Part shown: positions 1 through 33,267 of the stretch, in pieces
Numbering within the stretch: the stretch's first letter is position 1
How the letters are laid out: every line of letters begins with the position of its first letter
NCBI GenBank assembly: GCA_027858745.1
Contig: JAQICB010000152.1
Location: 1 to 33,267 of the forward strand
Length of the DNA: 33,267 nt
Direction of reading: 5' to 3'
Source of the DNA: Bacteroidales bacterium
GTDB lineage: Bacteria > Bacteroidota > Bacteroidia > Bacteroidales > UBA1715
Program-made: the position numbers and the translations under genes
The notes under the pieces: generated by a model
Seen by the model: only the letters and a program-made list of their open reading frames with translations
Database searches by the model: none
Told to the model about the DNA's origin: nothing

Positions 1-135
1 GCATACTTTTTCCGCTTATAAACAGCCATCTTCAGCTCAAAAATAATTTAAAATAACCCGTTATTATTTCATTATTTTTGATTGAACCTCACTATTTATA
101 AGCGTTCTGAATCAAAAAATTATATTGAACTCAGG
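1..135 (-). repeat. Left copy of palindromic terminal repeat
   Basis: This stretch is the reverse complement of 33049-33174, about 95 percent identical by eye. Read on the minus strand it starts with the core CTGAGTTCAATATAATTTTT and continues into a long imperfect palindrome at 13-104, with outer arms CGCTTATAAA and TTTATAAGCG and inner arms rich in AAAAATAAT. The copy here holds about 10 bases that the right copy lacks, at roughly 25-36, and with them the two palindrome arms have nearly equal length. It ends 15 bp from the stop codon of the antiporter gene. No coding sequence is seen in it. Whether it is a MITE-like, REP-like or other element cannot be told from this window. Confidence 0.85.
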
Positions 136-149
136 TTAAAAGGAGATGG

Positions 150-32632: not shown

Positions 32633-32745
32633 TTATACGTGAACCTTTTGCTTATTTCTGAAGATTCTTCTGATTATTTTTACCTACACCCATACGTACT
32701 CTATTGTATTTCGCTTCAAATAAATACTCAATTTACTGAAAATCA

Positions 32746-32776
32746 TTGACTTATAAATTTATTAAGTGTATATTTG
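32746..32776 (+). promoter_or_regulatory. Consensus Bacteroidota promoter in the intergenic end region
   Basis: TTG at 32746-32748 and TATATTTG at 32769-32776 are separated by 20 bases, the closest match to the full -33/-7 arrangement in this window. No coding start follows. A second full -7 match, TAGATTTG, lies at 32805-32812. Confidence 0.6.
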
Positions 32777-32782
32777 TATTAG

Positions 32783-33032
32783 AAAATAAAAACGTTCATT
32801 ATTATAGATTTGTAAGTAGAGTTATGTGAGATTGATTCGTGAAGTTGGAGATACAGATATGTATCATTTTTCATTTTTATTCAAATATTCTCGGTAGTGA
32901 AGTTGGTATGATGGTATAGTTTTGGTTTATGATTAGTTTTTCATTTTTGTAGAGGTTTGAGGTAGATTGATGGAGTGAGATCCGAGAATATTTAAAGAGG
33001 TTGTCTGTTTTTCAGACAACCTCTTTTTTTTT
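32783..33032 (+). ncRNA. Candidate structured noncoding RNA
   Basis: A promoter (32746-32776) and a strong terminator (32994-33032) bracket about 250 bases with no reading frame of useful length. Inside, AAATATTCTCGG (32883-32894) pairs perfectly with CCGAGAATATTT (32982-32993) around an 87-base domain, and GATAC/GTATC (32850-32865) forms a small hairpin. The segment GTGAAGTTGG occurs twice, at 32839 and 32897, and TTTTTCATTTTT occurs twice, at 32867 and 32937, so two imperfect repeat units may be present. I do not match it to a known RNA family; 6S-like or Bacteroidota-specific RNAs were considered without a firm match. It could also be a decayed gene or an untranslated leader. Confidence 0.35.
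32994..33032 (+). terminator. Strong terminator of the candidate RNA
   Basis: Perfect 14-bp stem AAAGAGGTTGTCTG (32994-33007) with CAGACAACCTCTTT (33013-33026), 5-base loop and a T-run to 33032. Confidence 0.9.
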
Positions 33033-33048
33033 GAGATGAGTCTATAAA

Positions 33049-33174
33049 CCTGAGTTCGATATAATTTTTTAGGTTCAGAACGCTTATAAATAGTGAGGTT
33101 CAATCAAAAATAATGAAATAATAACGGGTTATTTTAAATTATTTTTGAGCTGTTTATAAGCGGGAAAAGTATGC
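33049..33174 (+). repeat. Right copy of palindromic terminal repeat
   Basis: Inverted partner of 1-135. It starts CCTGAGTTCGATATAATTTT, passes through the palindrome at 33081-33162 (outer arms CGCTTATAAA and TTTATAAGCG), and ends AAAAGTATGC. About 10 bases present in the left copy are missing from the right arm here, and a few single-base differences are scattered. It lies 16 bases after the terminator of the candidate RNA. Confidence 0.85.
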
Positions 33175-33175
33175 T

Positions 33176-33267
33176 TTGCATAAAAAACAGTTTTTCTGCG
33201 TTAAATTATTTCACAATAGCTCGCTATTATTCAATAATTTGCCTTGATAAACAGCTTTTTATATCAA
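33176..33267 (+). repeat. Second long imperfect palindrome next to the right repeat
   Basis: Centred at about 33222: inner arms AATAGC (33215-33220) and GCTATT (33223-33228), middle arms AAATTATT (33203-33210) and AATAATTT (33233-33240), outer arms resembling ATAAAAAACAG and its complement near 33252-33264, about 70 percent paired overall. It has the same architecture as the palindrome at 33081-33162 but a different sequence. The window ends in or just after it, so its full extent is unknown. Confidence 0.6.

Follow-up and report, generated by a model that had tools for sequence, protein, structure and literature searches.

A locus close to the end of the analysed DNA very probably represents an independent non-coding RNA gene, as judged from its layout and its conservation in a second species (Table 1). 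The window, by which we mean the entire 33,267-nucleotide stretch, corresponds to contig C83 of a 2.9-Mb genome (G000). We compared it with a second genome (G001), the sole other genome of the genus in our comparison set. Since promoter and layout are shared with G001, and the long-range stem shows matching two-sided changes there, a stand-alone small RNA (sRNA) gene is very probable. As to its type and mode of action, we favor with moderate confidence an independent sRNA gene of about 250 nt, possessing a sigma-ABfr-type promoter and an intrinsic terminator, whose product would act in trans by base pairing. The RNA would be best read as an undescribed, genus-restricted addition to the known intergenic sRNAs with sigma-ABfr-type promoters. 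The gene layout, the conservation, and the covarying stem can be read directly from the two genomes, and we describe them in this order before turning to the predicted function.

Table 1. Features of the predicted small RNA locus in window coordinates.
Feature	Position	Strand	Remarks
Promoter GAAAATCATTG	32738..32776	+	Contains the -33 TTG (32746-32748), a 20-base spacer, and the -7 box TATATTTG (32769-32776)
Predicted small RNA gene, ~250 nt	32781..33032	+	Start predicted from the -7 box; colinear homologue in G001 (L012, ~1557-1855)
Conserved 5' block GTTCATT	32794..32800	+	From the alignment with G001
Conserved block GTGAGATTG	32826..32834	+	Identical in G001; putative contact site
Small hairpin GATACA/TGTATC	32850..32865	+	No counterpart in G001
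Long-range stem, 5' arm AAATATTCTCGG	32883..32894	+	12 perfect pairs; changes in G001
Conserved loop block ATAGTTTTGGT-TTATGAT	32916..32933	+	Within the long-range stem; from the alignment with G001
Long-range stem, 3' arm CCGAGAATATTT	32982..32993	+	12 perfect pairs; changes in G001
Intrinsic terminator	32994..33034	+	14-bp hairpin (32994-33026) with a loop of 5, followed by a T run

The earlier note had described the best promoter pair of the window, followed by no gene and closed by a perfect 14-bp terminator, and all three claims hold. Scanning both strands of the window for the pattern TTG-N17..23-TANNTTTG gave five matches, among which only the one with its TTG at 32746 has both TATATTTG and the 20-base spacing; TATATTTG occurs in one further match, whose TTG (21957) lies at a spacing of 23. 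The predicted RNA is preceded by a -33 TTG and a -7 TAnnTTTG with no gene behind them, the combination that serves as the criterion for sigma-ABfr sRNAs. No open reading frame of at least 80 amino acids overlaps the predicted RNA in the window, and a search for tRNA and tmRNA found none. A Rho-independent terminator stands at the 3' end of the predicted RNA in the window as well as in G001; in the window, one terminator was found, whereas shuffles yielded 0.1 on average. The predicted RNA is single-copy in its own genome except for the terminator hairpin, whose sequence is found again, at 78-92% identity, elsewhere in that genome and in several relatives.

The layout of an independent small RNA, which the earlier note had proposed from the window alone, is borne out by G001, where the same succession of promoter, RNA body, long-range stem, and terminator stands between different genes. 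Both GAAAATCATTG and TATATTTG are identical there, their spacing is unchanged, and they are followed by a colinear RNA. The global alignment of the two RNAs scored 369, a value that none of 1,000 dinucleotide shuffles attained (mean 222.5, s.d. 24.9). None of 7,454 natural pieces of other loci scored as high either (maximum 278), a lenient control as their composition differs. In a gap-permissive alignment, 154 of the 186 aligned bases were identical, with 261 columns overall. The G001 RNA ends in a 14-pair terminator of other sequence (L012, 1817-1849). The small hairpin and the two imperfect repeats pointed out in the earlier note, namely GTGAAGTTGG occurring twice and a 21-nt pair at 81%, are present in the window RNA but find no counterpart in the alignment with G001. 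Conservation refers throughout to just two sequences, those of G000 and G001.

The perfect 12-bp long-range stem is confirmed as the longest perfect stem of the window transcript, the best of 100 dinucleotide shuffles reaching 9 pairs. When the G001 RNA is taken alone, its longest perfect stem also comprises 12 pairs, which 0 of 100 shuffles reach, and it lies at the position homologous to the window stem. The compensatory changes for which the earlier note had proposed to search do occur: among the 11 stem pairs compared between the window and G001, seven are unchanged, three have changed on both sides, one has changed on one side, and none is broken, only 4 of the 11 pairs being variable at all. 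The twelfth, outermost pair of the window stem, which lies outside this count, is T-T in G001, and the G001 stem gains two pairs at its inner end. The register of the stem was taken from an alignment bridged by two constructed hybrid sequences; in a plain gapped pairwise alignment, the arms lose their register and the stem is not recovered by RNAalifold.

With the terminator included, the window RNA folds with a z-score of -2.8, and 0 of 200 shuffles were as low. The 12-bp stem is present in the centroid fold of this RNA and absent from its minimum-energy fold; the stem pairs have probabilities of 0.53-0.67 in this RNA and of 0.61-1.0 in that of G001. Taken over its full length, the G001 RNA folds only slightly better than its shuffles (z = -1.53, with 6 of 100 equally low or lower). 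The long-range stem is fairly well supported, and we regard the remainder of the RNA as mostly unstructured. The word "structured" in the earlier note can be kept for one long-range helix and the terminator, but not for the small hairpin and the repeats.

Ahead of the terminator, the RNAs of both species contain 5.6% C and 23.5% G. Among 213-nt stretches taken from both window strands in 10-base steps, all those with a G-over-C skew of at least 0.5 start at 32730-32820 on the + strand. Because the strand is C-poor, it should fold little and stay largely single-stranded. We propose that transcription would proceed from a primary-sigma (sigma-ABfr-type) promoter and stop at the intrinsic terminator, giving an RNA that is nearly free of C and would for this reason be largely single-stranded. 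The terminator-proximal stem of ~12 pairs would hold the 3' half as a loop of ~90-110 nt. The likely contact sites would be GTGAGATTG before the stem and ATAGTTTTGGT..TTATGAT in the loop, both presumably single-stranded. The most likely action would be base pairing with messenger RNAs, which may alter their translation or decay, perhaps together with an RNA-binding protein.

We searched both genomes for sites that such contact blocks could address. Leaving aside the RNA itself, the complement of ATAGTTTTGGT was found 9 times in G000 and 10 times in G001, compared with 4 and 7 for the reversed-pattern control. One of the G001 sites is located just upstream of a gene start and one in the first codons of another gene; from their reading frames, we take these genes to be O-acetylhomoserine-sulfhydrylase-like and PNPase-like, respectively. 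Neither site has an exact counterpart in G000, and the two were not counted as evidence. The exact complement of GGTGAGATTG has no G001 site but its own and six sites in G000, whose block lacks the first G, and the 10-base search pattern CAATCTCACC fits the G001 block only, so that this search covered the G001 form of the block. The searches of G000 and G001 found no conserved target site.

That no target common to both species was found would also agree with an RNA that binds an RNA-binding protein or a second RNA through its C-poor single strands, the stem serving as a scaffold and messenger pairing playing no part. C is scarce over most of the RNA body in both species, and Bacteroides RbpB is reported, in the part of the publication considered here, to bind single-stranded parts of sRNAs (PMC11697453). 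However, we found no conserved repeated short motif of the kind that would mark a titrating RNA, and the window repeats have no equivalent in G001, and we regard such a protein-binding or sponge RNA as rather unlikely. It is also doubtful that the C-depleted RNA, perhaps evolving fast and confined to one genus, uses its terminator-proximal stem to present the ~100-nt loop as an open guide or sponge surface; general literature searches found no description of this design for Bacteroidota.

The favored reading, a stand-alone sRNA that pairs in trans, places the window RNA next to the intergenic sRNAs of Bacteroides thetaiotaomicron. For this species, the consulted sections of one study report 124 intergenic sRNAs, a canonical sigma-ABfr promoter for 76% of the intergenic candidates, and 49 high-confidence sRNAs with a terminator, 27 of which are strain-specific; several of the sRNAs have extended unfolded regions (PMC7366714). 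According to the same sections, the shared features are the promoter type, the intergenic place, the terminator, the low GC content, the partly unfolded state, and the frequent restriction to a lineage (PMC7366714). The long-range stem around a C-poor loop is the window RNA's own, and the likeness is one of layout, predicted on our side. The FopS sRNAs of the FopS/GibS group, which are reported to pair near start codons and to bind RbpB, and whose family is reported as deposited in Rfam, resemble it in the canonical promoter, the single-stranded 5' stretch, and the terminator at the end (PMC11697453). Unlike the single-copy window RNA, FopS has 14 copies in B. thetaiotaomicron, and the consulted part of that report describes its consensus as a terminator plus a single-stranded stretch, with no long-range stem (PMC11697453). 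No sequence relation between the window RNA and known Bacteroides sRNAs was found, and kinship is by layout. General literature searches found no description of the window RNA. If the prediction is true, it adds one more conserved, undescribed small RNA to a phylum in which work on small RNAs has centered on Bacteroides; by itself, it opens no new RNA class.

The conserved block GTGAGATTG also bears on the coding potential. In both species, a short frame starts at the same conserved GTG of this block, with 23 codons in the window and 36 in G001, as a messenger for a small protein or a dual-function RNA would require. The two peptides have their first three residues in common, in a comparison of two sequences, but by our measure their similarity does not go beyond chance (118 of 2,000 shuffles as high). 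Moreover, the frames part at the stem, where the changes are compensatory. A peptide encoded by this frame is improbable.

As far as our tools reach, the RNA appears to be confined to the genus, although more distant homologues of a C-poor RNA that evolves fast could escape detection. The conservation in relatives that the earlier note had called for is narrow: both genomes of the genus (2/2) carry the RNA, but searches of the family's other 12 genomes did not detect it. A DNA search with the window sequence in 60 genomes (own included) gave a match in seven, own included, and the matches outside the own genome fell mostly on the terminator hairpin. Two places lay elsewhere: G001:C29, which is the homologue and matched at the promoter and the transcript start, and G042:C149, a 28-base match that we rejected as a homologue as no such RNA was seen there by eye. 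The promoter pattern occurs at four places in three of the 14 family genomes; L037 and L038, two of these places, both precede protein genes and were rejected as this RNA. With the G001 RNA as DNA query, 10 of 295 genomes of the order gave a match, with two candidates scored per listed genome, and none showed the layout when 500 bases around each of the ten were inspected by eye in the orientation of the contig. This search is insensitive, as the window genome was among the 295 yet remained unscored.

Covariance models gave the same distribution. A model built from the window RNA alone (R1) scored G001 at only 10.1 bits, within noise. We therefore refer below to model R2, which was built from the window and G001 RNAs together and which both match by construction. 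In the 295-genome sample of the order, R2 gave 26 matches at E <= 1, with the own genome at 4.8e-29, the next at 0.018, and nothing else significant; G001 was absent from these matches, which we took to mean that it had not been drawn. Among the 14 family genomes, nine matches had E <= 1, only G000 and G001 fell below 0.29, and the 12 others gave nothing significant. Twelve weak R2 loci reached E-values of 0.0007-0.013 when rescored in a smaller search, which we took as noise from the smaller search space, and none of ten weak loci examined by eye had the layout. A pattern of the three conserved blocks retrieved 13 stretches from the collection genome_contigs. One of them is the G001 contig (L093, JAAYPM010000087.1, a Bacteroidales MAG) with 5.5% C and a 12-pair stem; the other 12 have 11.8-27.2% C and no perfect stem of more than 9 pairs. 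In the collection viral_contigs, two block patterns matched 1 and 29 stretches; the single one lacks the layout, and R2 over all 30 gave no E-value better than 0.063. A protein scan found no relative.

It is very improbable that the locus is a decayed gene, part of a mobile element, or a product of chance. A dispersed repeat of ~220 bp does start at 33047, right behind the terminator, but the RNA is single-copy apart from the terminator hairpin and conserved in G001, a comparison with the 3-kb locus of G001 detected no repeat copy, and the plasmid and phage collections gave no match. The repeat, up to ~230 bp long, occupies both contig ends (window 1-137 and 33047-33267) and occurs at seven of the own-genome loci that were compared (L135, L003, L132, L134, L121, L002, and L015), ~88-98% identical where matched. 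The assembly was probably interrupted by this repeat, which may represent a MITE-like or REP-like element.

The genomic neighborhoods differ between the two genomes. In the window, a DUF389 gene on the same strand precedes the RNA, with ~110 bases between its stop and the beginning of the promoter; this gene is found in 17 of 41 genomes (own included), not in G001. There, the RNA is flanked by a divergent FGAM-synthase-type gene and by a convergent gene with a thrombospondin-type-3 repeat match. The FGAM-synthase-type gene is present in 12 of the 14 family genomes; a scan of its flanks for the -7 box, GTTCATT, and GAGATTG, partly read, revealed no such RNA in the 11 genomes besides G001, with ~220 bases covered in G005. 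As the own promoter and terminator are kept while the neighbors change, the RNA is best read as an independent unit. A promoter, a stem, and a strong terminator in a row would also suit a cis-acting leader or attenuator of a downstream gene, and in the window any such gene would be off the contig, which ends behind the RNA. Behind the G001 terminator lies a co-directional 60-aa frame (L012, 1893-2075), but this frame runs into the end of the convergent gene, and we consider it a chance occurrence. Since the first long gene behind the RNA in G001 is the convergent one, and since the flanks differ, a leader role is unlikely. The RNA would also seem too C-poor in composition to provide a good antiterminator strand against GAGGTTGTCTG. 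Taken together, we consider a leader highly improbable.

The earlier note could not assign the RNA to a described family, and in our search no Rfam family reached its cut-off over the window (0 matches). On the region at E-values up to 5, nine matches appeared, all below their own cut-offs and most of them on the terminator hairpin. Bacteroidota RNA motifs with Rfam numbers are listed in the consulted part of an earlier survey (PMC2864571). Among described families, 6S-Flavo (RF01685) and Bacteroidales-1 (RF01693) are likewise stand-alone Bacteroidota RNAs, and neither matches the window RNA. Neither these two models nor the 6S model RF00013 hit the window at cut-off, and searching the region at E-values up to 5 brought up none of the three. 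Across G000, RF00013 and RF01685 found nothing, in a search whose controls rang in 5 and 0 of 14 genomes, respectively; none of the five is a Bacteroidota genome by name, and both models are weak for this group.

6S RNA forms a long rod that is closed by its 5' and 3' ends. A diverged 6S RNA of the genus, to which the similar length, the promoter-driven stand-alone gene, and the lack of any other 6S hit in G000 (with models weak for the group) might point, is extremely improbable, as no 6S model matches the locus, the long stem begins ~100 nt from the 5' end and does not close both RNA ends, and G001 carries a separate 6S-like RNA at another locus (L138, 1480-1640; 6S-Flavo, 37.2 bits, below cut-off). 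A further diverged 6S-like RNA lies in G013 (L139, 1476-1660; Bacteroidales-1, 30.8 bits, below the Rfam cut-off). Rfam cut-offs miss the diverged 6S-like RNAs of both G001 and G013. The one in G001 is flanked by genes that we take, from their translations, to be ZapA-like and RNase Y-like.
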